Assembly (NCBI RefSeq): GCF_036826855.1
Contig: NZ_CP104578.1
Span: 5,987,501 to 6,051,500, forward strand
Length of the DNA: 64,000 bases
Source: Streptomyces sp. SJL17-4
GTDB taxonomy: Bacteria; Actinomycetota; Actinomycetes; Streptomycetales; Streptomycetaceae
Direction of reading: 5' to 3'
Shown here: positions 21,173 to 64,000 of the stretch, piece after piece
Layout: each line of letters opens with the position of its first letter
Position numbering within the stretch: the first letter of the stretch is position 1
Program-made: the position numbers and the translations under genes
The notes under the pieces: generated by a model
Told to the model about the DNA's origin: nothing
Database searches by the model: none
The model's input: the letters and a program-made list of their open reading frames with translations, nothing else

Positions 21173-21510
21173 GGGAACTCCCTTGAGGTGGGGGACCTTG
21201 GCGGGTGCCGTCCCCGTGGGTGCCGGGCGATGGCCCGGTCATCGTGGCGGCGCGAGGTTTCGGTGGGGGGTGCGCCAGGTAACAGAGTGGCGACATGAGC
21301 ACGTCACATCAAGGGGTGTGACGTGTCCTGATGGAGCGCCAGGTTCCGCCCCGGATCACGGGAGTTGGGGCGGGGAGCGCGTCAGAGGTGGCGTGTCTGT
21401 GCGGGTATGCCGTGCATGCGCGGGTACGGCGATGTGGGGGTACGGCGAGACCCCGGGCCCTTTCGGCCCGGGGTCTCGTCCCGTCGTGGAGCTCGTGGAG
21501 TCCTGAAGCC
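21173..21510. other. Intergenic region with a strong hairpin at 21446-21478
   Basis: It carries the promoter region of the secreted nuclease at its left and, at 21446-21478, a stem cgagaccccgggcc / ggcccggggtctcg with loop ctttc, which serves the HAD gene ending at 21511. Nothing coding was seen in the rest. Confidence 0.7.
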
Positions 21511-49490: not shown

Positions 49491-49551
49491 GGATCCTCAT
49501 CTCTCCACGGCGGTACGGAGCGTGTTCGACCGTTGCCCATCATAACTAGAA

Positions 49552-49566
49552 CTGACGATCCGTCAG
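49552..49566. promoter_or_regulatory. Palindrome ctgacg-atc-cgtcag upstream of the MBL gene
   Basis: 6-bp arms around three bases, preceded by aactaga; 62 bases from the MBL start. Looks like a TetR-family operator. Confidence 0.6.
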
Positions 49567-49871
49567 GGTAGTCGCTGGTGAGTGGACTTCCCCCCGCCTG
49601 TGACCAGCGAACCAGTTGTCGTTGCTGGTCGTTGCTGGTCGATGCCCAGCCCTCTTGCACGGCCCACGGACGGCCCGAGCGATCGGAACTTGTCGAGCGC
49701 TCGCCCAAGCCGGCCAGGGTCCCTCGCGCGACCTTTGCTCCTGGCGCCCCTAGGTGGGCGATGCGAAGGGGCCTCCCGTGCGGATGGCCCGACCGCACCC
49801 AGCGTGCTTTCACTTCTCACGGGTTCCGTAAGGGCTGCTCGCGGCGGGCGCCCTGACGCTACGCTGCGGCC
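49567..49871. promoter_or_regulatory. Intergenic region before the PIN-HEPN gene
   Basis: A tandem gttgctggtc pair at 49619-49638 is the only repeat seen. TACGCT at 49860-49865 lies six bases before GTG 49872, a -10 element for a leaderless transcript. No tRNA fragment or attachment core was found. Confidence 0.5.
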
Positions 49872-51575
49872 GTGGAGCATGAAGAACCAGAGAAGGTAAG
49901 CGAAGATGGTCCCGTCCCCCATCGCGGCGTATTCGATGGATTTTCGGGTTATGTAACCCCCACCGATGAAGATTGGAGGGGTGTACTCCGTAATGGTCTC
50001 GTGGTAATCGACACGAACGTTTTGCTGAATCTCTATCGATATAACCAGGCGGCTCGTGAGGCGTTTCTGGGAACACTTCAGAGTCTCGGAGGCTGCCTGT
50101 GGGTTCCTCATCAGGTGATGGAAGAGTTCTGGCGAAACAGGGAGGGGGCGATCGAGGACCCCGGTAGGCAACTTGCTACTTCTGAGCAGGCCCTGAAGAA
50201 GGGGTTGCAAAAGGCCATAGAGGATCTTCGAGGGTGGGCGAACAGGGTCTCGCTTGAGCCGTCCAATGTCGAAAAGCTTGAGTCAATTCTCGACGTGGCA
50301 TTTGAGAAAGTCATCGAGTCGATGGCTGAAGTCGTCAATGGTGGCGAAGGGGAGATGTCGCGAGACACGTCACGGGATAAGGTAATTTTGGCCCTAGATG
50401 CTCTCCTGAAGGGAAAAGTGGGGCCGCCTTTGGAGCAAAAGGATCTTGCGGAGCAAATTGCAGAAGGCAAGAGGCGTATTCAGAATCAGGTGCCACCAGG
50501 GTTTAAGGATAAGTCGAAAGCTTCCCGAGGGGACGACTCTGAGGTCGGGGATTACCTTGTCTGGGTTCAGCTCATTAGAGAGGCAAAAAAGAGGAGTGTT
50601 GATGTTCTTTTGGTGACTGGGGATGTCAAGGAAGATTGGTGGAGGACGCGTCATAATATTCCTGTCGGCCCGCGCAATGAACTGTCTGAGGAGTTGCGGC
50701 AGGAGGTCGGGACGCGACTTTACATGCTTAAGCCTGAGAAATTGTTGTCTTACGCGCGAGATTTCCTTCAAGTTGAAGTTGCTGAGGACTCGGTTCAGAA
50801 TGTCGAGATGGTGGCTGCTCAGTCCACCGCCGACGCGGCGTTTCGGGCCCTGGGCGAACGAGCCGAGTATGACGCGACCGGAGCCGTTCTAGGGGCGTGG
50901 AATGAGGTTGAGGCCGCACTTGAGAAGCTAGCTCCCGGAAGTGCTTTCGGTCAGGCACGCGTGACGTCTGGAATGCGCTTGAGGCTCCTGGAGAAGATCC
51001 ATGGACCGACAGATGTTATGAGGCGAGTCCGTGAGCTGCGAACCGTCCGCAACAAGATTGCGCACGGCGATGAAGTTGAGTTTACCCAAGAAGGTGCGCT
51101 GGCGTTTGTGGCAATGGCCAGAGAGGTTGTGGATTACCTAACTCTAGTCAACGCTCCTCGATATCAGGCGGCGCAGCTTGAGGCTGCGATCCATGAAGCG
51201 CTTAATCGCGGTGGATTTTCCGTAACGGAAAGTCGCGTAGATGGATCGCTGTTTGACTTCCTGGTCGGCGACCCCATGAATCCCGGCTCATTCGCCGCGG
51301 TTGAGGTCCAGTTTATCGCCGGTGGTTCGTTTAATGAGAGTAATCTTTCCAGAGAGGCTGGAAGACTTGCTACCGTCGGAACCGGTGTCATTTCACTGCT
51401 TGTGGTGACTAACGCTCCTCTGGCGCCGCGGGTGCAAGAGTTCAATTCTGCCATTGACGGTTCGTCGGGTCTCGCGGGTCGGCGTCTAGAAGTTGTTCAG
51501 TGGAGAGGGCCGGACGATGATTCGGTCCTGATCAGGGCTCTGGGGAGAGCGATGCGAAAATCTGGTCCGCAGTGA
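49872..51575 (+). CDS. Three-module putative nuclease: PIN-like, HEPN-type RxxxxH, PD-(D/E)xK-like
   Basis: 567 residues, distinctly lower GC than its neighbours. The PIN-like module (about 40-260) has D47 in VVIDTNVLLNLYRYN, E84/E85 in VPHQVMEEFWRNREG, D227 and D251 in VLLVTGDVKEDWW. Residues 320-425 are helical with R393-NKIA-H398, the HEPN ribonuclease motif. The C-terminal part (435-567) has FDFLV (D462) and AVEVQ (E478, Q480), a PD-(D/E)xK-like core with Q for K. Such stacked nuclease modules are typical of anti-phage or abortive infection proteins. No ribosome binding site; leaderless from TACGCT. Confidence 0.82.
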   Translation: MEHEEPEKVSEDGPVPHRGVFDGFSGYVTPTDEDWRGVLRNGLVVIDTNVLLNLYRYNQAAREAFLGTLQSLGGCLWVPHQVMEEFWRNREGAIEDPGRQLATSEQALKKGLQKAIEDLRGWANRVSLEPSNVEKLESILDVAFEKVIESMAEVVNGGEGEMSRDTSRDKVILALDALLKGKVGPPLEQKDLAEQIAEGKRRIQNQVPPGFKDKSKASRGDDSEVGDYLVWVQLIREAKKRSVDVLLVTGDVKEDWWRTRHNIPVGPRNELSEELRQEVGTRLYMLKPEKLLSYARDFLQVEVAEDSVQNVEMVAAQSTADAAFRALGERAEYDATGAVLGAWNEVEAALEKLAPGSAFGQARVTSGMRLRLLEKIHGPTDVMRRVRELRTVRNKIAHGDEVEFTQEGALAFVAMAREVVDYLTLVNAPRYQAAQLEAAIHEALNRGGFSVTESRVDGSLFDFLVGDPMNPGSFAAVEVQFIAGGSFNESNLSREAGRLATVGTGVISLLVVTNAPLAPRVQEFNSAIDGSSGLAGRRLEVVQWRGPDDDSVLIRALGRAMRKSGPQ

Positions 51576-51648
51576 ACTGTCTATTCCGTGGCCGATGAGC
51601 AGGAGAGCCGAAGGGGCGCATTAGACCCCGCTAGTGATGCTAAGAATG

Positions 51649-51677
51649 GTGCGGAAGCCCGTAGCGAGCTTCCGCAC
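51649..51677 (+). terminator. Hairpin terminator after the PIN-HEPN gene
   Basis: gtgcggaagc / gcttccgcac perfect 10-bp stem, 74 bases past the stop. Confidence 0.75.
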
Positions 51678-51709
51678 TACTTGCGTGGGTCGCCCGATCG
51701 ATGTATTGG

Positions 51710-52405
51710 CTATGCCTGCGGATGGGCAAGAGCGTGAGCAATGGTCCGCATATCCGATACCACGGTGTCGGCGCCCGCGGCGATGAGGCTGGGCTGCTTA
51801 CCTGCTTTGTTCGCGAACCCGATACTTCCCGCTCCTGCCGATCGTGCCGCCGTGATGTCAGTGACAGAATCGCCGACCAGTGCCGACCGCTCAGGCGAGA
51901 CGTCGAGAATCACCGCGGCTTCCAGTAGGGGGTACGGCGACGGTTTCATGAGATCCGGCCGAAGGGCCGGTCGACCGACCACGGTCTCCACTACCCGGGA
52001 GAGCCCCTGTGCCGTGAGGTAGACATGCACGCAGTCCACGGAATTGTTGCTGACGATGGCCACGCGTCGCCCCGAAGCGCGTGCGGCCGTCAGGGCCTCG
52101 ACTGCCCCAGCCGTCGGGGCCCCAGCGACGCCGACCGCCCGAATCTCTGCGTCCGTGAGTGCCGCCTCGACAGCGGCCAGGACACCCTGCCCGCCCTCGC
52201 GCGCGAGCTGGTGAACCATCATTGGGTCGTCCGTCGCGTGGGCCCTGTGCGCGAGTTCCGGGGCGAGCGTGGCGAGCAGTGCCGAGAGGTCTTTGGCGAC
52301 CCCCGAGGCGGGGAGCCCCTGGAAGACGTGGCAGATCGGGCCGTCGAAGTCGAAGAGGATCGCATCGTAGTTGGCGAGCATGCTGGTCAGCGGGTCAGAG
52401 TGCAT
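51710..52405 (-). CDS. HAD family hydrolase
   Basis: 231 residues. Motif I is AILFDFDGPICHVFQG (with Pro where most have Gly-Thr), motif II RVAIVSNNSVDC, motif III LMKPSPYPLLEAAVILDVSPE and SALVGDSVTDITAARSAG as motif IV. ATG 52405 overlaps the GntR gene by 11 bases, so they form one operon. Phosphatase of unknown substrate, probably carried with the GntR regulator in mobile DNA. Confidence 0.9.
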   Translation of the reverse strand: MHSDPLTSMLANYDAILFDFDGPICHVFQGLPASGVAKDLSALLATLAPELAHRAHATDDPMMVHQLAREGGQGVLAAVEAALTDAEIRAVGVAGAPTAGAVEALTAARASGRRVAIVSNNSVDCVHVYLTAQGLSRVVETVVGRPALRPDLMKPSPYPLLEAAVILDVSPERSALVGDSVTDITAARSAGAGSIGFANKAGKQPSLIAAGADTVVSDMRTIAHALAHPQA

Positions 52406-53261
52406 CCGCGGTGGTCTCCCGTCCGATGGTCTCCCACACGCTGTCGAACCACATCCGTGCCTGCTCCACCTGCTGGGCGCCACTGGACGAGTCGCCGTCG
52501 TTGAGGGAGTGGTGGAACAGGATGGTGTCCTTGCCCACCAGGTCGTAGATCTCGATGGCTTCGCCCTGAGCAACCACCTTGTTCGGGCGGATCGGGTAGT
52601 AGCCGAAGAACGCGTCTTCCTTGTTGACGACGTAGAGCTTGAAGAACTGCGTGCCGCTGTGGACGCGCACGCTGACGTTGCCTTCCTGGACGAGACCCAG
52701 GTGCTCCAACTCGCTGATGGAGTCCGTGATGCTCCGGGTGTAGCCGACCATGATGTCGTGCATGCGAGCCCGCAGCCGGGGGTCGTCGGCACAGTCCTCG
52801 CGACGTACGGGTGCCGCCTGGGGGACAGCCATATCCGGGACGAGGATCCGAATTTGGATGCTGGAGGGCGTCAGCCGTCCGGTCCGGATCTTGTCGAGCG
52901 GTTCCTGTAGGGCGCCGTGGAGCGTCTCGCTGGAGAATCCCGCGAAGTCGATCGTCACGTTCCGGCTGGCGAATGCCTGCTCCACGTAGGGGCGAAGCCC
53001 CGCCGGCCGCTCGGTCCGGTGTCGGACGAACACGCCGCTGCCCTTCCGGGAGACGACGAGCCCTTCGTCCTCAAGGTCCCGGAGCGCGCGCTGGATCGTG
53101 GCTCGGGCGAACCCGTAGTGCTCTGTCAGCTTCGCGTGTGACGGCAGCTTCTCTCCGGGGCCGAGCTTCCTGGTGCGGATCGCCGCACCCAAGCTGCGGG
53201 CCACCTGCTCATACGGCGGTCGGTCGTCGTCCGGGTCCAGCGGCTCAAGCTCAAAGGTCAT
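52395..53261 (-). CDS. GntR family regulator of the integrative element (KorSA-like position)
   Basis: 288 residues. The N-terminal GntR wHTH is RPPYEQVARSLGAAIRTRKLGPGEKLPSHAKLTEHYGFARATIQRALRDLEDEGLVVSRKGSGVFVRHR. The rest is an effector-like part with WNVSVRVHSGTQFFKLYVVNKEDAFFGYYPI-type strands. In pSAM2-like elements the GntR protein KorSA represses transfer and activation genes. Several tggctagcca-type sites lie in its own promoter region (53300-53368), shared with the divergent transfer operon. ATG 53261; no clear Shine-Dalgarno. Confidence 0.88.
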   Translation of the reverse strand: MTFELEPLDPDDDRPPYEQVARSLGAAIRTRKLGPGEKLPSHAKLTEHYGFARATIQRALRDLEDEGLVVSRKGSGVFVRHRTERPAGLRPYVEQAFASRNVTIDFAGFSSETLHGALQEPLDKIRTGRLTPSSIQIRILVPDMAVPQAAPVRREDCADDPRLRARMHDIMVGYTRSITDSISELEHLGLVQEGNVSVRVHSGTQFFKLYVVNKEDAFFGYYPIRPNKVVAQGEAIEIYDLVGKDTILFHHSLNDGDSSSGAQQVEQARMWFDSVWETIGRETTADAL

Positions 53262-53299
53262 GCCCTCGATGCTACGGCGAACCTGACTATTTGAGCAGC

Positions 53300-53368
53300 C
53301 TGGCTAGTCACATGTTGACGTGGCTAGCCAGGCTGGCTATGTTCATCCTGTGCCCACCGGGCTAGCCA
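53300..53368. promoter_or_regulatory. Repeated tggctagcca operators between GntR and the transfer operon
   Basis: tggctagtca at 53301-53310, the perfect palindrome tggctagcca at 53321-53330, a half site ctggctat at 53333-53340 and gggctagcca at 53359-53368. This pattern would let the GntR protein control both divergent promoters. Confidence 0.75.
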
Positions 53369-53375
53369 AGTGAGT

Positions 53376-53752
53376 CAGGCTGAACGGGAGAGCTGTGTCG
53401 TCAAGACGCAGGTCAGGGGCGTGCTTGCACGACAAGGAGCCCCTGAGAGATGGGGCTGAGGGCCCCGGATCCCTGGTCAACCGGAGGGCGAGACCGAAAG
53501 GTCGCCGTCTCGCATGCCTAAGCCGGGAGCTCGTGTTCCCGAAGGCGAGACATCCGCACCACCTGCTCCACCTGATCCGCAGCGGTTGCTGCGGCCGGTT
53601 GCCTCCTCCGCCCGTCCGGTCCCCGTTCGCGGGGTGCCGTACGGGCGGGGTTGAGGGGAGCCGGAGATTCCTGGTTCTAACGGCGAGAGGCCCCGGTGGT
53701 AGGACACCGGGGCCTCGGTTCGGGCCGTTCCTGACTGGAAGGAACACACCCA
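53376..53752 (+). promoter_or_regulatory. Structured leader of the transfer operon with hairpin 53687-53716
   Basis: About 375 bases with no convincing gene. The hairpin gaggccccggtg / caccggggcctc (53687-53716) stands 36 bases before the first start and could act as an attenuator. gaaggaac precedes ATG 53753. Another inverted pair is gtctcgc / gcgagac at about 53505-53555. Confidence 0.6.
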
Positions 53753-54016
53753 ATGTTGTCCATCGCTGCACTTCAGGCCGTTGTTACGGCTACCCCGTTC
53801 GACGGTGAGCCGTCGGACGCCGAGCTGAACGCGATCGAGAACGAGATGCCGCTGATCCTGGCGGACGTCGAACTGCTCGACGCGGTGATCAAGACGCTGG
53901 ACCGTCCCGTCACCAAGCTGGACGAGCGGCGGATCCGCCGGGCCCGTCACCGGGTCGTGGCGGCCCGCCGGGACCTCACGAACCGCGCCGCCGTGCAGTC
54001 GGGCGGTGCCGCGTGA
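53753..54016 (+). CDS. DUF6284 family protein
   Basis: 87 residues: MLSIAALQAVVTATPFDGEPSDAELNAIENEMPLILADVELLDAVIKTLDRPVTKLDERRIRRARHRVVAARRDLTNR. Small helical protein found at the head of transfer operons of Streptomyces integrative elements. Function unknown. Its stop overlaps the next start by four bases. Confidence 0.88.
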   Translation: MLSIAALQAVVTATPFDGEPSDAELNAIENEMPLILADVELLDAVIKTLDRPVTKLDERRIRRARHRVVAARRDLTNRAAVQSGGAA

Positions 54017-54351
54017 GGGCCCGGACGTTGGCGGACTTGTCCGCCCCGCTGCTGGCGCTGCGGCTGCTGACGGCGGAGTTCGCGCACATGGCGGCGCCGA
54101 CCGTGGAGGTCTCGCCGATCTACCCGGAGCGGCTGGAGCTGACGTTCCACGACGACTTCGCCGCCTTCGAGGCGTGGCGCGAGGCCTTGAACATCGCCCC
54201 CGAGTCCGTTGTTCATCGCGTTCAGGTCGGCGGTCAGACCGGCGTCCTGCGTGTTCACGCGACGTTCGCCGGGGCTGAGCTGGAGCTGGTCGGCTACGCG
54301 AAGGTCCCGGCCGTCAAGTCGGTTCTGGCGGGTGCGGGAGTTGGGTCGTGA
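54013..54351 (+). CDS. Hypothetical protein of the transfer operon
   Basis: 112 residues: MRARTLADLSAPLLALRLLTAEFAHMAAPTVEVSPIYPERLELTFHDDFAAFEAWREALNIAPESVVHRVQVGGQTGVLRVHATFAGAELELVGYAKVP. Mixed alpha/beta, no membrane segment. GTG overlaps on both sides (GTGA), so translation is coupled. No family recognised. Confidence 0.8.
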   Translation: MRARTLADLSAPLLALRLLTAEFAHMAAPTVEVSPIYPERLELTFHDDFAAFEAWREALNIAPESVVHRVQVGGQTGVLRVHATFAGAELELVGYAKVPAVKSVLAGAGVGS

Positions 54352-55349
54352 ACGGTGTTCAGATCCGTTCAGCGGAGCGGGCCCTGTCAGTGGGCACGTG
54401 GCTGATCGTGGGCGGGGCGATGCTGTACTCGGTCCTCACGGTCACCCCGTTGATGGCCGCCCACACGCCGGCCGAGTGGCGGTGGACGTCCCCGATTCTG
54501 CCGCTCGTGGTGGACGCGGCGGTCGTCATCGTGGTCCGTCTCGACTCCGTCCTGGCCCGTCTGGGCGGGCATGGCGGACGCTGGCCGGTCACGCTGCGGT
54601 GGATGACCGGCGGCATGACCCTGGCCCTGAACGTCGCCGACTCTGCTCTGAGGAAAGACCTGGTCGGGGTGGCGGTCCACGCGGTGGCGCCGCTGCTGCT
54701 GATCGTCACGGCGGAGACTGGTCTGGCCTACCGCCGGGCGATCACGAACGCGCTCGCCGCACATCAGGAGCGTGAACGCGCTGAGCGGGACGCCCGGGAG
54801 AGGGCCGCTGTCGAGCGTGCGGACGCGGCGGAGAAGCGGGCTCGTGAGGCGCGGGAGTTCGACGCCCGGATGGCGCGTGAACAGCGCGAGCATGAAGCCT
54901 CCCTGGCCCGTGAACAGGCTGAGCGGGAAGAGCGCGCGCGGCGTGAGGAGCGCGAGCGGGCCGAGGCCGTCGAGAGGGCGGAGCGGGCCGAGCGTGAGCG
55001 TGCCGAGCGTGAGCGTGAACAGCAGCGCATCGAGCGTGAACGCCGTGAACGTGACGCTGCCGCGCGCATGGAGAGGGAGCGTCGGGAGCGCGAGGAGCGG
55101 GCCCGGCGTGAACAGCGCGAGGAGGCCGAGCGTGCCGAGCGTGAACGCGCCGAGCTGCTCGCCGCCGGCCCCGCGCTGGTGAAGCAGTCCGAGGAGCAGG
55201 CCCGTAAGACCGTGGCCGCCGCCTACGCGGCGAGCGTCCCGGTGCGGCAGGCCGCTGAGCTGTGCGGCTGGTCGGTGGGTTGGGTCTCCAGCCGCTACCA
55301 GGAACTGCGCGACCAGGGTCCCGCCCAGCCGCTTGAGGAGGCCGCCTAG
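54348..55349 (+). CDS. DUF2637 membrane protein with a long charged coiled coil (Spd-like)
   Basis: 333 residues. Four transmembrane helices in the first ~130 (TWLIVGGAMLYSVLTVTPLMAA, ILPLVVDAAVVIVVRL, WMTGGMTLALNVA, LLLIVTAETGLA) form the DUF2637 domain. Then about 170 residues of nearly pure Arg/Glu/Ala heptads (RERAEREREQQRIERERRERD) make a coiled coil, ending with a helix-turn-helix-like VRQAAELCGWSVGWVSSRYQ. DUF2637 proteins belong to plasmid spread functions. Confidence 0.88.
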   Translation: MNGVQIRSAERALSVGTWLIVGGAMLYSVLTVTPLMAAHTPAEWRWTSPILPLVVDAAVVIVVRLDSVLARLGGHGGRWPVTLRWMTGGMTLALNVADSALRKDLVGVAVHAVAPLLLIVTAETGLAYRRAITNALAAHQERERAERDARERAAVERADAAEKRAREAREFDARMAREQREHEASLAREQAEREERARREERERAEAVERAERAERERAEREREQQRIERERRERDAAARMERERREREERARREQREEAERAERERAELLAAGPALVKQSEEQARKTVAAAYAASVPVRQAAELCGWSVGWVSSRYQELRDQGPAQPLEEAA

Positions 55350-55684
55350 TGAGCGCGCTGCCCGTCTACCGCTGGCGGCTCGCGCCGGAGGGGCTGGCCA
55401 CCTTTCGCCAGCTGCGGGCCATGAACCTGCGGCCCGGTGGTCAGCCGGTGGTGGCCCAGCTCGAACGGCCCCGCCGGAAGCGCGGGCCGCTGGTCGCGTT
55501 CCTGTACCGGGTCGACCTGGCCCGGCCGGTCCGGCCGATGACTCCGGCGCGGTGGGCGGCTCTGGAGCGGGCGAACGCGGCCCGCCGGGTCTGCCCGGAA
55601 TGCGGGCGGGACGCCGGATACCGCATCCCCACTTCGCTCGGCATGTGCGTCCCGTGTGCGGACGCTCCCCAACTCGCTGCCTGA
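55349..55684 (+). CDS. RRQRL-motif zinc-binding protein
   Basis: 111 residues: a basic first part (WRLAPEGLATFRQLRAMNLRPGGQPVVAQLERPRRKRGPLVAFLYRVDLARPVRPMTPARWAALERA) and a zinc ribbon CPECGRDAGYRIPTSLGMCVPCAD. This is the small zinc-binding protein class frequent in Streptomyces transfer operons. GTG 55349 overlaps the preceding stop. Confidence 0.85.
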   Translation: MSALPVYRWRLAPEGLATFRQLRAMNLRPGGQPVVAQLERPRRKRGPLVAFLYRVDLARPVRPMTPARWAALERANAARRVCPECGRDAGYRIPTSLGMCVPCADAPQLAA

Positions 55685-55698
55685 CCTGGAGGTTTCCC

Positions 55699-55914
55699 GT
55701 GCAGAGCAACACCCAGCAGGGCTCGCACATGTACGTGCTGACCATGCAGAACCGCCAGGAGAGCGCGTGCACCCTCTCCGGCACCTACACCCCGCCGCCG
55801 GGGCTCACCCGGTTCGACATCCTCGCCCAGCTCCGTCTCGACGCGGTGCGCCAGTACCCGTCGATGGAGGGTGCGGTCGTCCTGCACTTCGCCTTCGAGC
55901 CCAACACCGTCTGA
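55699..55914 (+). CDS. Small hypothetical protein of the transfer operon
   Basis: 71 residues: MQSNTQQGSHMYVLTMQNRQESACTLSGTYTPPPGLTRFDILAQLRLDAVRQYPSMEGAVVLHFAFEPNTV. Soluble, no motif. GTG 55699 has tggagg in perfect position. Confidence 0.85.
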   Translation: MQSNTQQGSHMYVLTMQNRQESACTLSGTYTPPPGLTRFDILAQLRLDAVRQYPSMEGAVVLHFAFEPNTV

Positions 55915-55925
55915 GGAGGCCCGCT

Positions 55926-56441
55926 GTGTCCCGATCCCGATCCCGTTCACGTTCGCGTGCGGTGAAGGTGCCTGCCGGCGCCACGACCGTGCGTATCCCC
56001 AGGCAGCGCGGCTTCCGCCCCGCCGCCCCGGTCGTCGTCCTCATCCCCGAACAGCGGCCCTCGCTCACCTCCCGGGCCGCGTGGGCCGTCGGGGGCTGGC
56101 TGTGGCGTCACCGCACGATGTGGGCCCCGTCCGGCATCGCCGTCGGCGTCCTCGCCGCCGTCGGAGCCGTGCACGTCATCGCGCCGTGGATGGTCTGGGC
56201 CCTCGCCGCCCTGACGCCCGCGCCCGCCGGCGGGCTGTGGTGGGTCCGCCGCTCACGTCCCGACGCCTTCGGCGAGCACACCGCCCGTCTGGTGGCCCTG
56301 ACGGTCCTGGCCACGGCCGCACTCGGCTGGGCCGCCGCCACGGTCCACTTCGGGCCGCTCACCGGCCCGCTGATGTGGCTGTGGCTGCTGCTCGCCACGG
56401 CCGCGCAGGTGTTCTGGCTCGTCGTCCGCCGCTCCCACTGA
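55926..56441 (+). CDS. Membrane protein of the transfer operon (SpdB-like)
   Basis: 171 residues. An SRSRSRSRSR start and a basic region are followed by about four hydrophobic helices (WAPSGIAVGVLAAVGAVHVI, PWMVWALAALTPAPAGGLWWV, LVALTVLATAALGWAAATV, PLMWLWLLLATAAQVFWLVV). Position and topology fit the plasmid spread proteins that move transferred DNA between mycelial compartments. GTG 55926. Confidence 0.78.
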   Translation: MSRSRSRSRSRAVKVPAGATTVRIPRQRGFRPAAPVVVLIPEQRPSLTSRAAWAVGGWLWRHRTMWAPSGIAVGVLAAVGAVHVIAPWMVWALAALTPAPAGGLWWVRRSRPDAFGEHTARLVALTVLATAALGWAAATVHFGPLTGPLMWLWLLLATAAQVFWLVVRRSH

Positions 56442-56458
56442 CCTGAGGAGTTCCCGTC

Positions 56459-57034
56459 ATGGCCCAGATTCCCAACAGTCGCCGCACCACCCGCCCCCGG
56501 CAGCCCCGGCCCAGCACCAACAACGCGGGTCCGAGTAACGGCAAGTCGGACAAGTTCGCCAGCGCCGGTGCCGCCGTCGGCGGTTTCGTCGGCGCGATGG
56601 GCGGCTCGTTCGCCCCGCCGATCAACGTCACCGTCAACCGCACCACCAACCGCGGTGGGGGCGGGCGCCGGCCGCACGCCGAAGCGCTGCTGCCCGCACC
56701 GGACTTCAGCTCACCGGCGCAGGTGCGGAACTACTGCAACAGCCTGCGGGCCGCCGCCGTCGCCCTCTCCATCGAGGTGGCGATGGGGACGGAGATCCTC
56801 AAGAGCGTGCTTGCGGCGGTCCCGGACCCGGAGGGCCGCATCGGCGGCTCCCGCATCCGGGCCGCGAAGGTGTCCCGCAAGCTCCGCAAGGCCGCCGACG
56901 ACCTGCGCGACGCGGCCAAGAACGCCGCCGCCGCATACGCCACGTTCCAGCAGGAGTACCAGGAAGAGATCAACCGAGTCCGCCACCGCGCCCGCCCCCG
57001 CGCCACACCGCGCATGGACTGGGCCCAGCAGTAG
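56459..57034 (+). CDS. Transfer-operon protein (TraA-like), linked to the FtsK-type translocase
   Basis: 191 residues. A disordered basic start precedes a Gly-rich region (AGAAVGGFVGAMGGSFAPP), and helices follow (QVRNYCNSLRAAAVALSIEVAMGTEILKSVLAAVPDPEGRIGGSRIRAAKVSRKLRKAADDLRDAAKNAAAAYATFQQEYQEEINRVRHRA). Usually encoded just before the translocase. Exact function unknown. RBS tgaggag. Confidence 0.78.
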   Translation: MAQIPNSRRTTRPRQPRPSTNNAGPSNGKSDKFASAGAAVGGFVGAMGGSFAPPINVTVNRTTNRGGGGRRPHAEALLPAPDFSSPAQVRNYCNSLRAAAVALSIEVAMGTEILKSVLAAVPDPEGRIGGSRIRAAKVSRKLRKAADDLRDAAKNAAAAYATFQQEYQEEINRVRHRARPRATPRMDWAQQ

Positions 57035-57051
57035 CCGAAGGGAGAACGGCC

Positions 57052-59103
57052 ATGGCACGCAAGCACACGGAATACGTCCTCGACGACCACCCACGGGGCG
57101 GTTCGGAGAGCGGGAGCATCGGCGGCTACCTGCTGCACCGGGCCAAGCCGCATCTGCCGCCGTGGCTCGGCGTCGCGGGCACCGGCCTGGCCGGGGCGCT
57201 GGGCCACATGCGGTGGGCCGACAGCGCCGCCGCCGGCGTCGGCCTCACGGTCGCCTCGGTGGCCCTGACCGGTGCGACATGGTGGATCGGCAGGAACACC
57301 AGCCAGCAGCGGCGCCTGCACTCCGCGATCACGGTGGCCGCGGGGTCGGCGTGGCTGACCGGCGCGTGCCTGGCCGGACCGGCCGCCGGACCGCTCGGGG
57401 ACCTGTTCCTGATGGGCGGCCCGGTGATCGCCCTGTCGTGGAACGTGCGCATGGTCATGCGCCGCACCGACGCCGACGCCGCGGCCTCCAGTTCCGACAA
57501 GGGGCTGCTGGAGAAGGTCGGCCTGGCGCGGGCGGCGATCGGTGCGGCGAAGGTCGAGCCGAACCGGGTCACCGCCCCTATCGCGCTGGAGCCGGGCGAG
57601 CAGACCAACGACGACGTCACCAAGGTCCTCCCGCGGCTCGCCTCAGCCCTGGACCTGCCGACCACGGCCCTGCGCTACATGCCGAACGCCGACTCCGCCC
57701 GGCGCGGTGAGCTGGTCATCGTCCCCGAAGACATGCTCGCCGAGGTCGTCGAGTACGACGGACCGTCCCAGCTGGGTGGCTCGATCGCCGACCCGCTGAT
57801 CATCGGCCGGTACGACGACGGCTCGCCGCTCATGCTGTGGCTGCCGGGTGACCCGGAGGCGGGCCGCAACGCCACGCACGTGCTGATCGCGGGCGGCACT
57901 GGCTCCGGCAAGGGCGACGGCGCTCTCAACGTCCTCACGGAGATTCTCTCCCGCCGGGACGTCAACGTGTGGCTGTCCGACCCGAAGTCCTTCCAGGACT
58001 TCCGCCCCCTCCTGCCCGCGTTCGACTGGGCCGAGGAAGGCGGAGCGGGTACGGAGGCGATGGTCGAAGCACTCCAGGCCGTCATCCCCGCCCGGACCCG
58101 TTGGCTCGGTGCCCACCGCTACCGCCAGTGGCTCCCCGAAGCCGCCGAGCGGCAGACCGATCCGGCGCACTCCTGCCGGAGTGATGGCACGGCGTGTGGC
58201 TGCCCCGGCATGGCCTACCTGGTCGGTTGGTTCGAGGAGGCCGCCAACACGCTGCGCGCGCTCGGGGACGACGCGTTCACCGGCATCGCTCAGGAGGCCC
58301 GTGCGGCCGGCGTCTCCCTGGTCGTCTCGCTCCAGCGCCCGAGCTATGACCAGATGAGCACCAGCACCCGCGCGTCCCTCCCGTCGGTGATCGCGTTCGG
58401 CTGCGACCCCCGCGACGAAGGGTTCTCCCTTCCGGAGACGGTCATCGACTCCGGCGCCCACCCCGGAGCGTGGGGGAACCGGCGCCCCGGCTACTGCTAC
58501 GTCGTCTCCCCGGGCATCCCCGAGGACCGCTACCCCGCCCCGGGCCGCACCCGCCGCTTCACCTCCCGCTCCATGGACGTGATGGAACAGCTCGCGGACT
58601 GGGCCGCCGCCCACGGCCCGGCTATGGACCCGATCACCACCCGGGCCGCCGAGGGCACCGTCGGCAACGCCTACACCAAGCGCCGCCGCCACACCCTCGA
58701 CAGCACCCCCGCCCCTCAGACCGGCCCGTCGGAGGTGGACGGTGTGGAGGAGGACGACATGTTCGAGGACTCGTTCATTGACCCGGAGGACCACGGTATC
58801 GACCCCGAGGCCGACCTCCCCGACGACGAACCGGGCGACGACGAGCCCGTGTTCGGCACGGACACCGGCCGTAAGCCGAGCCCGGATGAGGCCCGGCTCC
58901 TGCTCGCTCAGGCGCTGGAGGAGTTCGAGGAGGAGGGCCGGATGATCGTCGGCCCGAAGGACTTCACCGACTGGTGCGACACCCACGGCTACAGCCGACC
59001 CTGGGTCTCCGCCCGGCTCAAGGACGCGGCCATGGACGGCCGCCTCCAGCCCACCAACCAGAGCGGGCGGTGGCGGATCGTGCCCGTCCTGGCCGCCGCC
59101 TGA
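57052..59103 (+). CDS. FtsK/SpoIIIE-type DNA translocase, conjugative transfer protein (TraSA/TraB-like)
   Basis: 683 residues. Transmembrane helices in the first 130, Walker A AGGTGSGKGD near 281, Walker B-like region NVWLSDPKSFQDF and SLVVSLQRPSYDQMST, and a C-terminal winged helix (about 600-680: ALEEFEEEGRMIVGPKDFTDWCDTHGYSRPWVSARLKDAAMDGRLQP) like the gamma domain that recognises specific octamers in plasmid DNA. It moves double-stranded DNA during mycelial conjugation. The stop lies inside the first octamer of the adjacent repeat array. Confidence 0.94.
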   Translation: MARKHTEYVLDDHPRGGSESGSIGGYLLHRAKPHLPPWLGVAGTGLAGALGHMRWADSAAAGVGLTVASVALTGATWWIGRNTSQQRRLHSAITVAAGSAWLTGACLAGPAAGPLGDLFLMGGPVIALSWNVRMVMRRTDADAAASSSDKGLLEKVGLARAAIGAAKVEPNRVTAPIALEPGEQTNDDVTKVLPRLASALDLPTTALRYMPNADSARRGELVIVPEDMLAEVVEYDGPSQLGGSIADPLIIGRYDDGSPLMLWLPGDPEAGRNATHVLIAGGTGSGKGDGALNVLTEILSRRDVNVWLSDPKSFQDFRPLLPAFDWAEEGGAGTEAMVEALQAVIPARTRWLGAHRYRQWLPEAAERQTDPAHSCRSDGTACGCPGMAYLVGWFEEAANTLRALGDDAFTGIAQEARAAGVSLVVSLQRPSYDQMSTSTRASLPSVIAFGCDPRDEGFSLPETVIDSGAHPGAWGNRRPGYCYVVSPGIPEDRYPAPGRTRRFTSRSMDVMEQLADWAAAHGPAMDPITTRAAEGTVGNAYTKRRRHTLDSTPAPQTGPSEVDGVEEDDMFEDSFIDPEDHGIDPEADLPDDEPGDDEPVFGTDTGRKPSPDEARLLLAQALEEFEEEGRMIVGPKDFTDWCDTHGYSRPWVSARLKDAAMDGRLQPTNQSGRWRIVPVLAAA

Positions 59104-59233
59104 CACCCCGCGTGACGCCTGACACCGTCACGGGCCCCTGACACCCAAACCCTCAGGCAAACGGGGGTGTCACGCGCCCCTGACACCCCCGCGTGACACC
59201 CCCTGACACCCACGCCCACGGGCCCGTGACACT
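59100..59233. repeat. ctgacacc octamer array, candidate clt transfer site
   Basis: Exact ctgacacc at 59100, 59119, 59138, 59180 and 59203, with variants gtgacacc (59193), gtgacact (59226) and the inverse ggtgtcac (59166). TraB-type translocases recognise clustered 8-bp repeats at a clt site next to their gene. Confidence 0.75.
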
Positions 59234-59272
59234 CACCCGTCACGGGCCCGTGCCGTACCCCGAGGACTCGCC

Positions 59273-59773
59273 ATGCCCTACCCCGAGCAGCCCCCCGGGC
59301 CCACCGCCGTCCACTACCCCGTCCCCCTCCACCACTCCGCCGTGAGCGCCCCGCTCGCCGCCGCCCCGCCAACCGGGCTCCCGGCCGTGCAGAGCATCCA
59401 GCTCCCCGACGGCCGCATCATCACCGGCTACGCCCTCGCCCCCGCCTTGCCCGCCCCCGTGCCGGCCGCCCGGCCGGTCCCGGCATGGGCGAAGACCACC
59501 GCACTGCTCGCGCCCACCGTCGGTGGCGGCGTCGCCGCCGCCAGCATCGGACTCTCCTACGCCGCCCCGGGACTGATCGCCATGAGCCACGCCCTGTGGT
59601 CCGCCGCCGCCCTCATCGTCGCCACCGTCATCGCCGTCCCCGTCCTCATCCGCACCGCCCGACGCGCCACCGGCAGCGGCGGCGGCGGGTCGGGGGCGAC
59701 GACGCACATCACGCAGAACATCACCGCCACCGGCCTGTTCGGCCGCGCCAACGGCACCATCAACCACCACTAG
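59273..59773 (+). CDS. DUF6251 family membrane protein
   Basis: 166 residues. A Pro-rich start and SIQLPDGRIITGYAL lead to two hydrophobic helices (TTALLAPTVGGGVAAASIGLSYAAPGLIAM and WSAAALIVATVIAVPVLI) and the conserved tail THITQNITATGLFGRANGTINHH. Known in integrative elements of Streptomyces; function unknown. Confidence 0.85.
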   Translation: MPYPEQPPGPTAVHYPVPLHHSAVSAPLAAAPPTGLPAVQSIQLPDGRIITGYALAPALPAPVPAARPVPAWAKTTALLAPTVGGGVAAASIGLSYAAPGLIAMSHALWSAAALIVATVIAVPVLIRTARRATGSGGGGSGATTHITQNITATGLFGRANGTINHH

Positions 59774-59784
59774 GAGCGCAACCG

Positions 59785-60204
59785 ATGGCCCACATCCGGA
59801 TCACCTCCTACGGCACCGGACACGACGACAACCCCGCCGCCCCCGACCCGGTCGTCGTCGACACGACCGCCCTGCACAACCCGCCCGACGACCCCGCCGT
59901 CCGCGCCACGCTGACCCAGCTCACCGGACGACACCCCGACGTCGCCGCCTACGTCCTGGCCACCCCCGGCGCCCACAACCTCCTCGACACCGCCCGCCGC
60001 GACATCGAACAGCGCATCGTCCGGGGCGAGCAGCACATCGACGTCCACGTCCACTGCTACGGCGGCCGACACCGCTCCGTCGCCATCGCCGAACTCCTCG
60101 CCGCCGACCTCTCCGTCCTCGACGACTACGTCCACACCCACCACCGCCACATCAACCACCCGATCCTCCCCGCCCGCACCCCCCTTCTGACCGACCAGCG
60201 GTGA
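59785..60204 (+). CDS. RapZ C-terminal-domain-like protein
   Basis: 139 residues: MAHIRITSYGTGHDD, VVVDTTALHNPPDDPAVRATLTQLTGRHPDV and HVHCYGGRHRSVAIAELLAADL, the HCxGGxHRSV signature of the RapZ C-terminal domain. Such stand-alone domains occur in Streptomyces mobile elements. Role unknown. ATG 59785 follows taggagcg. Confidence 0.88.
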   Translation: MAHIRITSYGTGHDDNPAAPDPVVVDTTALHNPPDDPAVRATLTQLTGRHPDVAAYVLATPGAHNLLDTARRDIEQRIVRGEQHIDVHVHCYGGRHRSVAIAELLAADLSVLDDYVHTHHRHINHPILPARTPLLTDQR

Positions 60205-60281
60205 CCGTCCTCACCCCCGTCACCACCACCGCCCCGCCCGCCGTCGTCGCCAACGACGTCGAGCCGGGCAGCGCGGCCTGA
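60201..60281 (+). CDS. Possible 26-residue peptide downstream of the RapZ-like gene
   Basis: GTG overlaps the preceding stop (GTGA) and the frame VTVLTPVTTTAPPAVVAND then VEPGSAA ends with TGA at 60279-60281. Short, but the coupling suggests translation. Confidence 0.45.
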   Translation: MTVLTPVTTTAPPAVVANDVEPGSAA

Positions 60282-60300
60282 TCGCCGCGTAGCAGCACGA

Positions 60301-60338
60301 AGGGCGGCCCCCGTCTCGCCAAAGTCCGGGGCCGCCCT
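60301..60338 (+). terminator. Terminator at the end of the transfer operon
   Basis: agggcggcccc(c) / (c)cggggccgccct stem with an open loop, 20 bases after the small frame. Confidence 0.8.
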
Positions 60339-60380
60339 GCTCTCCATCGATCTCTCTACAGACCTGTGGAGGTCTCCAGC

Positions 60381-61310
60381 ATGACCCAACCCACCCCGAT
60401 CCGGCGAGACGGCGAGCACCCGTCGACGCTCGACGCCGCTCTCAGCGCCGCCGACCGCGGCTGGCAAGTCTTCCCGCTCCGCCCCGGCACCAAGCGGCCC
60501 GCGCTCCACGGTGAGGAGCAGTGCCCGCGGATCCGGGACTGCGCCGGCGGGCACCGGAAGTGGGAGGACCGTGCCACGACCGACCCGGACCGGATCCGGC
60601 GGGCGTGGGCGGACCGCCCCTTCAACGTCGGCATCGCCACCGGCCCGTCCGGGCTGCTCGTCGTCGACCTCGACATGCCCAAGCCCAACAGCAGTCAGGA
60701 CGCGCCTGACGGCGCGACGACCTTCGAAGCGCTCTGCGAGCGCGCCGGACAGCCCGTCCCCGCCACCTACCGCACGCGGACCGCGAGCGGCGGGACGCAC
60801 CTCTACTTCACCGCCCCGCCCGGTATCCGCATGCCCAACTCGGCAGGAAAGCTGGCCAAGTTGATCGACACCCGCGCGTGGGGCGGGTACGTCGTCGCCC
60901 CTGGCAGCCTCACCCCCACCGGCCCGTACACGGTCCTCGACGACCGCGCCCCCGCACCCCTCCCCGCGTGGCTGCACAGCCTGCTCACCCTGTCCCGCTC
61001 GATGGCGCCGTCCCGTGCGGCGGTCGCCGACCAGGCGGTCCGTGCCCAGCGGTACGCGCTGCGCGGCCTGGAGGCCGAGACCGCGAGCGTGGCGGGGGCG
61101 ATGCAGGGCGAGCGTAACTCCACGCTGCTGTCGGCGGCGCGAGCCTTGGGGCGGTTCGTCGCGTGGGGCGATCTTCCCCGGGACGTGGTTGAGGAGGCTC
61201 TTCAACAGGCGGGGGAGGCTGCCGGCCTGGCGCCGAAGGCCTGTGCGGCGACGATCCGCAGCGGGCTGAACTGGTCCATCGCCCACAACCCGCAGCGGCG
61301 GGCCGCATGA
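60381..61310 (+). CDS. Bifunctional DNA primase/polymerase (replication protein of the element)
   Basis: 309 residues. Prim-pol domain: ALSAADRGWQVFPLRPGTKRPAL, RIRRAWADRPFNVGIATGPSGLLVVDLDM (acidic catalytic D-L-D), TYRTRTASGGTHLYFTAPPG and WGGYVVAPGS. C-terminal helices (GERNSTLLSAARALGRFVAWGDLPRDVVEEALQQA) are like PriCT. It starts plasmid-type replication of the excised element. ggaggt precedes ATG 60381. Confidence 0.93.
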   Translation: MTQPTPIRRDGEHPSTLDAALSAADRGWQVFPLRPGTKRPALHGEEQCPRIRDCAGGHRKWEDRATTDPDRIRRAWADRPFNVGIATGPSGLLVVDLDMPKPNSSQDAPDGATTFEALCERAGQPVPATYRTRTASGGTHLYFTAPPGIRMPNSAGKLAKLIDTRAWGGYVVAPGSLTPTGPYTVLDDRAPAPLPAWLHSLLTLSRSMAPSRAAVADQAVRAQRYALRGLEAETASVAGAMQGERNSTLLSAARALGRFVAWGDLPRDVVEEALQQAGEAAGLAPKACAATIRSGLNWSIAHNPQRRAA

Positions 61311-61651
61311 ACCACCCGACCCCTCCCCTGTTAAAGAGCCACACCCGGACCACGAACCAGTCCAGCGCCGCCGAGCAGCCGGTAGCCCCGGTAGCCGTGG
61401 GCGCCCAAAGGGTCGTCGCCGAAGGCGTCCCTTCTGGTTCTGACCCGCACCCCACCACCGGCCCCCGGATCGTCGGGATGCTCCACATCACCCTGCCTGA
61501 CCGCGGCTCCGTCCCCAGCGCCACGTCCCGCTGCGAGTGCGGACGCGACCTGTTCGCCACGGGCCACCACCAGGTACTCGCCCTCGTCGCCGACCACACC
61601 GCCCACCGGGCCCTCTGCCCGCTCCTGACCGAAAGGAAGGAAGCCGCATGA
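61307..61651 (+). CDS. Hypothetical protein between the two replication genes
   Basis: 114 residues: a disordered first half, then RIVGMLHITLPDRGSVPSATSRCECGRDLFATGHHQVLALVADHTAHRALCPLL with a CEC...C...C potential zinc ribbon. ATGA overlaps on both sides, so it is coupled to primase and DUF3631 genes. Confidence 0.78.
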   Translation: MNHPTPPLLKSHTRTTNQSSAAEQPVAPVAVGAQRVVAEGVPSGSDPHPTTGPRIVGMLHITLPDRGSVPSATSRCECGRDLFATGHHQVLALVADHTAHRALCPLLTERKEAA

Positions 61652-62841
61652 CCCAGCAGCCCATCGACGGCGCCGCCCTGCTCAACGAGGTGGAGGCCTT
61701 CCACCGCCGGTTCAACGTCTTCCCCCGTGAGGCCGCCTACGTCGCCGTCGCCCTGTGGGACGCCCACTCCCACCTCCTCGACGCCTTCGACTCCACCCCG
61801 CGGCTCGCGTTCCTCTCCCCGGAGCCCGGCTCCGGCAAGTCCCGCGCCCTGGAGGTCGTCGAGACCCTCGTACCGCGGCCGATGCTGGCGGTGAACGCGC
61901 GGGCCGCCGCCCTGTTCCGCTCGGTCTCCGACCCCGCCGGACGGCCCACGATCCTCTTCGACGAGATCGACACCGTCTTCGGCCCCAAGGCCGGAGACAA
62001 CGAGGAACTCCGCGGCTTCCTCAACGCCGGCCACCGCCGCTCCGGCGTCACCTACCGGTGCATCGGCGACGGCGGCAACCAGACCGTCGTGGAGTTCCCC
62101 TCCTACACCGCCGTCGCCGTCGCCGGACTCGGCGGCCTGCCCGACACCATCACCACCCGCTCCGTCATCATCCGCATGCGCCGCCGCGCCAGGAACGAGC
62201 ACGTCGAACCCTTCCGGGCCCGCCTGCACGAATCCGAGGGCAACCAGCTCCGCGACCGGCTCGCCCAGTGGGCCGACCAGGTCCGCGAGGACGTCGCCGG
62301 ACGCTGGCCCGAGATGCCCGACGGGGTCACCGACCGCCCCGCCGACGTCTGGGAGCCCCTGCTGTCCGTCGCCGATGCGGCCGGTGGGGACTGGCCCGAG
62401 CGTGCCCGCGCCGCGTGCGTGGAGCTGGTCAACGCGGCCCGCGCCGACGACAAGGGCTCGATCGGCATCCGGCTCCTCACCGACCTCCGTGACCACGTGC
62501 TGGTCGGCATCGACCGGCTGCCCACCGTCGCCGTCCTCGACCGGCTCTGCTCCCTCGACGAGGCGCCATGGGCCGACATGAGCGGCCGGCCGCTCGACTC
62601 CCGAGGGCTCGCGAAGATGCTGGGGGAGTACATGACCAGCGACAACACCCCGGTCAAGGCCCGCAACATCAAGACCGCCGGGACCGTCCTCAAGGGCTAC
62701 TACGCCGCCGACCTCCACGACGCGTGGGCCCGCTACTGCCCCCCACCCCTCCTGAGGGCCGCTACCTCCGCTACCTCCGCTACCCCGCAGGTCAGCGGCC
62801 CGGAAACGGTAGCGGAAGAGCTCTTCCCGTCCGCTACCTAA
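61648..62841 (+). CDS. DUF3631 domain ATPase (replication-associated)
   Basis: 397 residues. P-loop FLSPEPGSGKSRALEVVETL (about 50-65), Walker B PTILFDEIDTVFG and sensor-like GGNQTVVEFPSYTAVAVAGLGGLPDTITTRSVIIRMRRR. Follows a prim-pol gene, as in RepSA-like modules where primase and helicase-like ATPase are separate. Its 3' end (LRAATSATSATPQ) is encoded by the first three iterons. ATG 61648 overlaps the upstream stop. Confidence 0.9.
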   Translation: MTQQPIDGAALLNEVEAFHRRFNVFPREAAYVAVALWDAHSHLLDAFDSTPRLAFLSPEPGSGKSRALEVVETLVPRPMLAVNARAAALFRSVSDPAGRPTILFDEIDTVFGPKAGDNEELRGFLNAGHRRSGVTYRCIGDGGNQTVVEFPSYTAVAVAGLGGLPDTITTRSVIIRMRRRARNEHVEPFRARLHESEGNQLRDRLAQWADQVREDVAGRWPEMPDGVTDRPADVWEPLLSVADAAGGDWPERARAACVELVNAARADDKGSIGIRLLTDLRDHVLVGIDRLPTVAVLDRLCSLDEAPWADMSGRPLDSRGLAKMLGEYMTSDNTPVKARNIKTAGTVLKGYYAADLHDAWARYCPPPLLRAATSATSATPQVSGPETVAEELFPSAT

Positions 62842-62972
62842 GCGCTACCCGCTACCGGCCCCGCGCCCCCAAGGCCGGGGCCGGTAGCGGACACGTCCGC
62901 TACCGCTACCCCTCTCCGCTACCTCGATCATGCCCCTGACCAGGGCGGTAGCGGAGGTAGCGGAAGTAGCGG
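62759..62972. repeat. Iteron array ccgctac / gtagcgg, candidate replication origin
   Basis: Three ccgctacct-type units at 62759, 62768 and 62777 (9-base step); others at 62831, 62849, 62897, 62903 and 62916; inverted gtagcgg at 62809, 62884, and at 62948, 62957 and 62966 (9-base step). The outer triplets are mirror images. Confidence 0.75.
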
Positions 62973-63031
62973 ACCTGACAGGAAGGGGCGGGAAGCCCCG
63001 CCGCGTCGAGCCGACGACAGAGGAGATGACC

Positions 63032-63253
63032 GTGGCATCCGCTGTGACCACCCTGCGGGCCGGACTCCCGGACCGCTACCTCACCCCGGACGACATCGCC
63101 GAGTTGTTCGGCGTGCCGCTGGAGACCGTCTACCAGTGGCGCCGGAAGCGCACCGGACCGCCCGGGTTCCGGGTTGGCAAGCACGTCCGGTACGACCCCG
63201 TCGCCGTCCAGCGGTGGACGAGCGAGCGTATGGCTGCCGACCTGGCCGCCTGA
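63032..63253 (+). CDS. Excisionase / helix-turn-helix DNA-binding protein
   Basis: 73 residues: GLPDRYLTPDDIAELFGVPLETVYQWRRKRTGPPGFRVGKHVRYDPVAVQRWTSERMAADLAA, a MerR-like (HTH_17) Xis. The spacing of agaggag supports GTG 63032 over ATG 63026, which is too close to it. Next to the integrase, so it directs excision. Confidence 0.92.
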   Translation: MASAVTTLRAGLPDRYLTPDDIAELFGVPLETVYQWRRKRTGPPGFRVGKHVRYDPVAVQRWTSERMAADLAA

Positions 63254-63276
63254 GGCCGACAACCGATCAAGCCGTT

Positions 63277-63308
63277 CCGTGGGGCGGGGCCGTGGCCCCG
63301 CCCCACGG
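63277..63308 (+). terminator. Hairpin between xis and int
   Basis: ccgtggggcggggc / gccccgccccacgg with a 4-base loop, 23 bases after the xis stop; may reduce but not stop int expression. Confidence 0.8.
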
Positions 63309-63331
63309 TCATTCTCGAAAGGCACTACCGC

Positions 63332-64000
63332 ATGGCTGGCCACATCCAAGACCGTTGGTTCAAGGACGAGCAGGGAGACGACGGTAGGACTCGGCGCGTC
63401 AAGACCGATCGCTACGGAACCGGCCTCCGGTACCGGGCCCGGTATGTCGGCCCGGACGGAACCGAGAAGTCCAAGAGCTTCCCCGACAAGCAGAAGCGGC
63501 TCGCCGAGCAGTGGCTCAAGAGCATCGAGGTGGACATGGCTCGGGGCGAGTTCATCGACCCCAAGGCCGGGCGCACCACCTTCCAGCAGTACGCGGGACG
63601 GTGGGTCGCCGCCCAGACGACCGACATCGCCACGCGCACGAGCGTGGAGTCCAGGATCCGGCTCCACGCCTACCCCCACATCGGATCGCGCCCCCTCGCG
63701 GCCTTCCAGCCCGAGCACATCCGGGAGTGGCTGCGGAAGCTGGAAGACGCGGGGTTGGCCGCCTCCTCCCGCCGCGTCATCTTCGCCAACGTGTCGGCCG
63801 TCTTTACGGCCGCCCTCGACGACCGGCTCATCTCGCGGAACCCCTGCCGCGCGGCTTCGGTCAAGGCGCCGGCACTCTCGTCCAGTCGCGTCCGGCCGTG
63901 GAGTGCGGAGCAGGTGTTCGCCGTACGGGAGGGGCTCCCGGCCCACTACCGAGCGATGACCGACGTCGGTGGTGGCTGTGGGTTGAGGCAGGGCGAGATC
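63332..64000 (+). CDS. Tyrosine recombinase (integrase) of the element, cut by the window end
   Basis: 223 residues visible: an arm-binding part (MAGHIQDRWFKDEQGDDGRTRRVKTDRYGTGLRYRARYVGPDGTEKSKSF), the core-binding SAM-like domain (TFQQYAGRWVAAQTTDIATRTSVESRIRLHAYPHIGSRPLAAFQPEHIREWLRKLEDAGLAASSRRVIFANVSAVFTAALDDRLI) and the beginning of the catalytic domain (CGLRQGEI, first active Arg). Orientation suggests that the attachment site lies to the right, probably a tRNA 3' end. Confidence 0.95.
   Translation, partial: MAGHIQDRWFKDEQGDDGRTRRVKTDRYGTGLRYRARYVGPDGTEKSKSFPDKQKRLAEQWLKSIEVDMARGEFIDPKAGRTTFQQYAGRWVAAQTTDIATRTSVESRIRLHAYPHIGSRPLAAFQPEHIREWLRKLEDAGLAASSRRVIFANVSAVFTAALDDRLISRNPCRAASVKAPALSSSRVRPWSAEQVFAVREGLPAHYRAMTDVGGGCGLRQGEI

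Follow-up and report, generated by a model that had tools for sequence, protein, structure and literature searches.

Results

Gene and predicted protein

The window (i.e., the whole stretch of 64,000 nucleotides analysed in this work) contains a real gene at 49872..51575, the product of which joins a PIN domain, a HEPN domain and a restriction-endonuclease (REase) fold in a single chain. The gene, its domains and its immediate surroundings are laid out as follows:

49555..49871, + strand, upstream region from the att core to the start, with no Rfam match and no ORF with coding codon bias
49860..49865, + strand, TACGCT, a -10-like box 6 nt upstream of the GTG
49872..51575, + strand, whole gene PIN_8 - HEPN - Mrr-type PD-(D/E)xK, 567 aa, GTG start
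49998..50765, + strand, PIN_8 domain, residues 43-298 including the last strand/helix
50766..50822, + strand, conserved linker, residues 299-317, 'V-S-QNVE-V'
50823..51164, + strand, HEPN domain, residues 318-431, motif R393-N-x3-H398
51165..51554, + strand, Mrr-type PD-(D/E)xK fold, residues 432-561, with E437, D462, E478 and Q480
51649..51677, + strand, downstream hairpin GTGCGGAAGC-9 nt-GCTTCCGCAC

The N-terminal module is a clear member of the PIN_8 family (Pfam PF18476), whose profile matches residues 43-271 with an E-value of 4.4e-64 and 217 bits against a cut-off of 26.1. It has the four catalytic acids (D47, E85, D227 and D251), a long helical insertion at approximately residues 90-220 and the DxKxDWW signature of PIN_8 members. 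PIN_12/DUF4935 (PF16289) is just above its own cut-off (33.8 vs 32 bits), and PDB profile searches with the PIN_8 family profile returned no chain below E 0.05. For the rest of the protein, two AlphaFold models and comparison with the PDB gave a HEPN helical fold followed by a restriction-endonuclease fold. Structure prediction of the segments, together with the conservation described below, thus backs the three-module reading (PIN, HEPN and PD-(D/E)xK) proposed in the first-pass annotation. These fold assignments rest on VIA-align Z, motif positions and Pfam matches in relatives; Foldseek alone gave no match at E <= 0.001. In the window protein itself the best Pfam HEPN profile is below cut-off (HEPN_Swt1, E 0.039, 14.7 vs 27.5 bits), Mrr_cat (PF04471) is absent from the matches at E <= 10, and NCBIfam yields a single 14-bit match to a model with a cut-off of 220. 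Mrr_cat is above cut-off in the C-terminal part of P0006, P0009 and P0016, three of the 10 relatives scanned (7 of them full-length), and the Mrr-type region of the window protein contains the conserved blocks VVTNAPL and EVVQW. Matches to cutinases at residues 419-536, obtained from PDB sequences at E 0.06 and above, were discarded, being weak and contradicted by the fold.

The GC content of the gene is 55.0%, as opposed to 66-74% in five nearby genes, in agreement with its earlier description as a lower-GC gene. Both the alignment of the family and the TANNNT box point to the GTG at 49872 as the true start. The leaderless promoter suggested at first sight also found support: a box lies 6 nt 5′ of the GTG not only here (TACGCT) but also in the two other loci that carry the full protein (TAGGCT in L003 and TACGCT in L004). 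L005 has a similar one, and the sequence further 5′ differs. Such constant spacing supports a leaderless start, as predicted from sequence, and the sigma-70 scan reported no + strand site. As to the hairpin said to follow the gene, its 10-bp stem is perfectly paired; it lacks a T-run and went unreported by the terminator scan. The database copy of the window protein (P0001, 485 aa) begins at M83 and is thereby missing D47 together with the first strand of the PIN domain.

No recognisable partner gene or antitoxin was found beside the gene among ORFs, Rfam and Pfam matches and codon bias, and no restriction or modification partner was seen to adjoin it. Just upstream, the + strand has two ORFs (92 and 105 aa) that overlap each other. 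They are unlikely antitoxins, showing neither codon-position GC bias nor Pfam matches; no counterpart adjoins the relatives' genes, although a stretch of 29 aa has a match in L003 at a distance of 1.6 kb upstream of the gene there (E 1.6e-4). A type III antitoxin RNA is likewise unlikely, there being no Rfam match at E <= 0.1.

The integrative element around the gene

The modules by which AICEs (i.e., the integrative conjugative elements found in Streptomyces and its kin) are detected are a tyrosine integrase, an FtsK/SpoIIIE Tra protein and RepSA/RepAM or Prim-Pol (PMC3218068). An element of this kind encloses the gene, and its right end lies outside the window:

49542..64000, no strand, AICE with the PIN gene, 15.1 kb, continuing to 64674
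49542..49554, + strand, attL ATAACTAGAACTG, 13-bp repeat
51710..52435, - strand, HAD-family hydrolase, AICE accessory, adjoining the PIN gene
52395..53261, - strand, GntR regulator of the AICE
57052..59103, + strand, FtsK/SpoIIIE-type transfer protein, just short of the Pfam cut-off (21.9 vs 24 bits, E 1.3e-4)
60366..61310, + strand, Prim-Pol, AICE replication module, above Pfam cut-off
61648..62841, + strand, RepAM-type (DUF3631) replication protein, above Pfam cut-off
window-equivalent 63332-64597 (L002:1833-3098), integrase, Phage_integrase above Pfam cut-off
window-equivalent 64662-64674 (L002:3163-3175), attR, 13-bp partner of attL, just past the integrase

All the modules are therefore there, with integrase, Prim-Pol and DUF3631 over their cut-offs and FtsK slightly under, along with the att repeat and empty sites. 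The element is flanked by an MBL-fold gene (48441-49490) and an aldehyde dehydrogenase gene, both named by eye. In 12 of the 14 relatives' loci with an MBL-type gene (L069-L082), all with short flanks, the dehydrogenase adjoins it, and in 4 of the 14 (L069, L070, L073 and L078) a single exact copy of the 13-mer lies between the two genes. These single copies represent the empty site, from which it follows that the element extends from 49542 to 64674. The PIN gene is the first recognisable gene inside attL. The integrative element that the gene had been placed near is thus present, and the gene is cargo inside it rather than a neighbour.

A tRNA-Arg called by ARAGORN at 61235-61322 was considered as the element boundary and rejected, since the call falls within the Prim-Pol gene and no second copy of it occurs in the window; it is very likely false. 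A palindrome, AGAACTG-GTAT-CAGTTCT (window-equivalent 64662-64685, L002:3163-3186, seen by eye), precedes the aldehyde dehydrogenase gene. One of its arms overlaps the att core, and after integration the palindrome, which resembles an operator, is found solely on the right.

Conservation across relatives

Of 7997 candidate proteins scored, 547 matched at E <= 0.001, and the 120 listed (119 relatives and the window protein) were analysed. Among the matches listed at least 20 besides the window protein (P0002-P0021) are full-length, with query coverage of 92-100%, and all those bearing an organism name are from Streptomyces; most of the remaining 99 relatives correspond to the PIN part only. D47, N49, E85, D169, D227, D251, K253 and D255 are invariant in all 46 aligned sequences, which bears out four of the five acids (D47, E85, D227 and D251) first proposed as PIN catalytic residues. 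The fifth, E84, is a glutamate in just 13 of the 46, and this lack of conservation rules it out as catalytic.

Conservation is far from even along the 21 full-length proteins. Mean pairwise identity is 69% in the PIN domain and 77% in the linker (residues 299-317), as opposed to 36% in both HEPN and REase regions, with invariant positions numbering 97 of 256, 9 of 19, 4 of 114 and 5 of 136, respectively. In the HEPN region the characteristic Rx4-6H motif is found as R393-x4-H398, the pair already picked out by eye: the arginine is invariant (21/21), and both residues are kept in 19, P0015 and P0018 being without the histidine.

The REase centre behaves differently. The D-[EQ]xK set is complete in 8 of the 21 (P0002, P0003, P0004, P0006, P0009, P0016, P0020 and P0021) and incomplete in 13, i.e., the window protein and twelve others. 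In the window protein D462, E478 and Q480 are present as read in the first-pass annotation, and the centre they form is incomplete, the catalytic lysine having been replaced. With an invariant PIN tetrad and an REase centre incomplete in most copies, it is the PIN catalyst that selection holds, and not that of the REase. This bears on a type IV-like restriction activity, in which the Mrr domain would cut modified or foreign DNA and PIN and HEPN would be accessory. Mrr_cat exceeds its cut-off in three relatives, and the window protein's closest relatives (P0002-P0004) are among those with a complete centre; against this, the lysine is replaced by Q480 here, 13 of the 21 proteins lack a complete set, and the PIN tetrad never varies, making such restriction very unlikely as the function of the protein. 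An active REase in the window copy was rejected on account of Q480, and the earlier suggestion that its C-terminal module could cut foreign DNA is, given also the 13 incomplete centres, unlikely to apply to it.

Modular architecture and distribution

Sorting the C-termini of the 120 proteins by motif gave, among the matches listed, 62 with an FTRP tail, 21 with the HEPN-REase half and 37 of other kinds. A quick tree was built from 48 PIN regions; it leaves 16 of its 45 inner branches open and has several long-branch rows and an outgroup that does not form one side of a branch. In this tree the HEPN-REase form arises once (SH-aLRT 91). Its group is nested in a clade that also contains FTRP tails and two or more further types (P0031; P0038 with P0041), and one PIN clade thereby bears at least four kinds of C-terminus; that of P0024 resembles a divergent FTRP tail. 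Repeated swapping-in of HEPN-REase tails was considered and rejected, as the PIN tree needs one change only.

The HEPN-REase half also exists without the PIN domain, behind an N-terminal putative membrane helix read by eye, in G121, G316, G045 and P0121. Searched against 392 genomes of the genus, this half matches in 15, with the whole module in 4 (G121, G316, G045 and the window's own genome) and shorter, one-domain matches in 11; a homologue search with the C-terminal part alone, the yield of which is limited by the word filter, gave 4 proteins including the window's own. In a seven-row alignment of both architectures the HEPN R, N and H are invariant, as are the TNA, E.VQW and RA..R positions. 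RNxxxH is also kept in all seven HEPN-only relatives examined (L107-L113), all of them from Streptomyces. Several of these seven start with a putative membrane helix, and four contain an ETPAG or ETMAG stretch.

Such retention raises the question of whether HEPN is a second, equally essential RNase, acting jointly or in sequence with PIN, the REase fold being mere scaffold. The motif in 19 of 21 full-length proteins means that HEPN may itself be the RNase, and its invariance in all seven rows, including the form in which a membrane helix replaces PIN, as well as in the HEPN-only relatives, agrees with this. However, P0015 and P0018 lack the histidine and still have the PIN tetrad, and outside the motif the region is poorly conserved. 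On these grounds we consider an essential HEPN RNase rather unlikely, and prefer PIN as the active part.

The full protein is rare. Any match to it occurs in 40 of the 392 genomes and the whole protein in the window's genome only. Plasmid records gave 61 with a tblastn match, none covering 80% of the protein, and tblastn of the GenBank phage collection gave no match. A further 20 viral contigs (L083-L102) hold PIN_8-type relatives, mainly of the PIN part and none full-length. Both PIN and HEPN folds take part in RNA maturation elsewhere, according to the HEPN survey (PMC3710099), and housekeeping or stress RNA processing could be envisaged here too; occurrence in one genome out of 392, location on a mobile element and low GC make this highly improbable.

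Other genomic contexts

The full protein is encoded in two (L003 and L004) of 36 loci taken from genome contigs. In L004, 111-bp repeats at 7003 and 21205 enclose the gene together with an integrase (19921-21180). In L003 the gene is flanked by 68-bp repeats (G404:C1:1772414 and 1805468), with an integrase alongside; the second of these repeats falls in the terminal part of what looks, by eye, like a glutamine synthetase gene. Hence all three full-length genes with readable context, that of the window included, reside in att-bounded, integrase-bearing elements at three different att sites. Their cargo neighbours of defence type are an AAA_21 (AbiEii-type) ATPase in L003 and a Fic protein in L004; a survey of this sort had been proposed when the gene was first singled out as a defence candidate. 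The 111-bp repeat of L004 occurs in three copies (2623, 7003 and 21205), and a further integrase-like stretch is located near 1676-2543, which suggests tandem integration of two elements at one att site.

PIN_8 genes at large, rather than those of PIN-HEPN-Mrr type, were also compared for their neighbours. PADLOC families matched by the two nearest called genes on each side number 471 (107 of 124 proteins), vs 28 for the sixth and seventh (82 of 89 proteins), counts which are of redundant families and not of proteins, depend on crude gene calls and leave out L034, L035 (no gene call), L037 and L038. The far set, too, matches defence models (Dnd, Ssp, type II MTase and MkoA), and the contrast is only suggestive of PIN_8 loci lying near defence genes.

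A consistent location on mobile elements could also mean that the protein serves the element itself, by excluding rival AICEs or plasmids or as an addiction-like stabiliser of its own AICE, and not as protection from phage. Three integrase-bearing elements out of three, at three att sites, speak for it. A classical addiction module, however, would need an antitoxin, of which none is recognisable; three contexts are few, and among 82 loci, many with short flanks, the window AICE's proteins match only L003, L004 and L062. A purely element-serving role is in our judgement an improbable, if serious, alternative to the conflict-effector reading developed below.

Discussion

The protein matches none of the families of PADLOC-DB 2.0.0 at E <= 10, and no described system or paper with a PIN-HEPN-Mrr architecture was found among open-licence PMC papers, which agrees with the first impression that no named system was recognisable; the main text of a survey of defence in Actinobacteria (PMC10482375) contains no whole-word PIN, HEPN or AICE. 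PIN_8 itself is known here as a domain model only, and its fusion to HEPN and Mrr is one of several C-termini. One parallel by description is DS-3 of E. coli, a single protein with a PIN domain split in two parts, essential catalytic residues and no antitoxin (PMC13092281). It resembles the window protein in being one protein with a PIN domain in two parts, for which in the window, too, no antitoxin is recognisable, and differs from it in that the description on which this comparison is based mentions no HEPN or REase; by analogy it may serve as a lead only.

Other parallels concern parts of the chain. HEPN proteins are found fused to REase-fold domains, and Swt1 joins PIN and HEPN (Anantharaman et al. 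2013, PMC3710099). The systems of that survey share with the window protein the adjacency of HEPN and REase folds, whereas no PIN-HEPN-Mrr chain appears in the parts bearing on it, and Swt1 is a eukaryotic protein whose HEPN dyad is inactive. CoCoNuT systems similarly pair HEPN RNases with an inactivated PD-(D/E)xK fold; unlike the window protein they are multi-gene GTPase systems, and the main text has no whole-word match to PIN (PMC11090510). The Mrr-type restriction endonucleases (PF04471) share the C-terminal fold, the window copy differing from them in its missing lysine and in having no restriction or modification partner in sight. PIN effectors are named in other conflict systems as well (PMC7159879).

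Our main interpretation is that the AICE carries, as cargo, a conflict effector made by a single gene, in which a PIN RNase is controlled by a HEPN/pseudo-REase sensor, and we give it a probability of roughly one half. In its favour are a PIN tetrad invariant in all 46 sequences while the C-terminal half drifts, the modular ends, mobile contexts in three cases out of three, defence-type neighbours, the lack of a recognisable partner gene and the presence of the full protein in one genome of 392. PIN domains also serve housekeeping RNA processing, which counts against it, as do the few contexts (three) and the absence of a PADLOC match to the protein itself. The effector would serve in defence against phage or against competitors, and architecture, mobility and neighbours make a role against phage plausible.

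In such an effector PIN_8, which has the fold and the invariant acids of a metal-dependent RNase, would be the active part, and HEPN with the Mrr-type domain a fast-diverging unit of recognition and oligomerisation. HEPN would dimerise, and the REase fold, the active site of which is often incomplete, could bind a nucleic acid or protein linked to infection or invasion. This binding might release or assemble the PIN domains, which would then cleave RNA of the cell, probably its tRNA or mRNA, and halt the cell or mycelial compartment before the phage or the rival element is made. A protein inhibiting itself in this way would need no separate antitoxin, as proposed for DS-3 (PMC13092281).

It is tempting to go one step further and see here a single-protein immune design, in which a decayed restriction fold and HEPN form a recognition head by which a PIN RNase is activated, the same head being mounted elsewhere on a membrane helix. 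Streptomyces would then use one sensor with two unrelated outputs, one of them on mobile elements. This more specific idea is tentative, and we find it possible yet doubtful. If the effector works as proposed, AICEs come with a nuclease immunity of their own, encoded by one gene, and an RNase has acquired a former restriction fold as its sensor. The varied C-termini on the PIN_8 core and the varied N-termini on the HEPN-REase head would also make it easy to map the sensing and the killing half.

As a separate observation, made by eye, a similar GntR-type gene is located beside an FTRP-type PIN_8 gene and two membrane-helix HEPN-REase genes (L005:11468-11941, L064:162-1256 and L066:2759-3205), as if genes of both kinds belonged to one element type.
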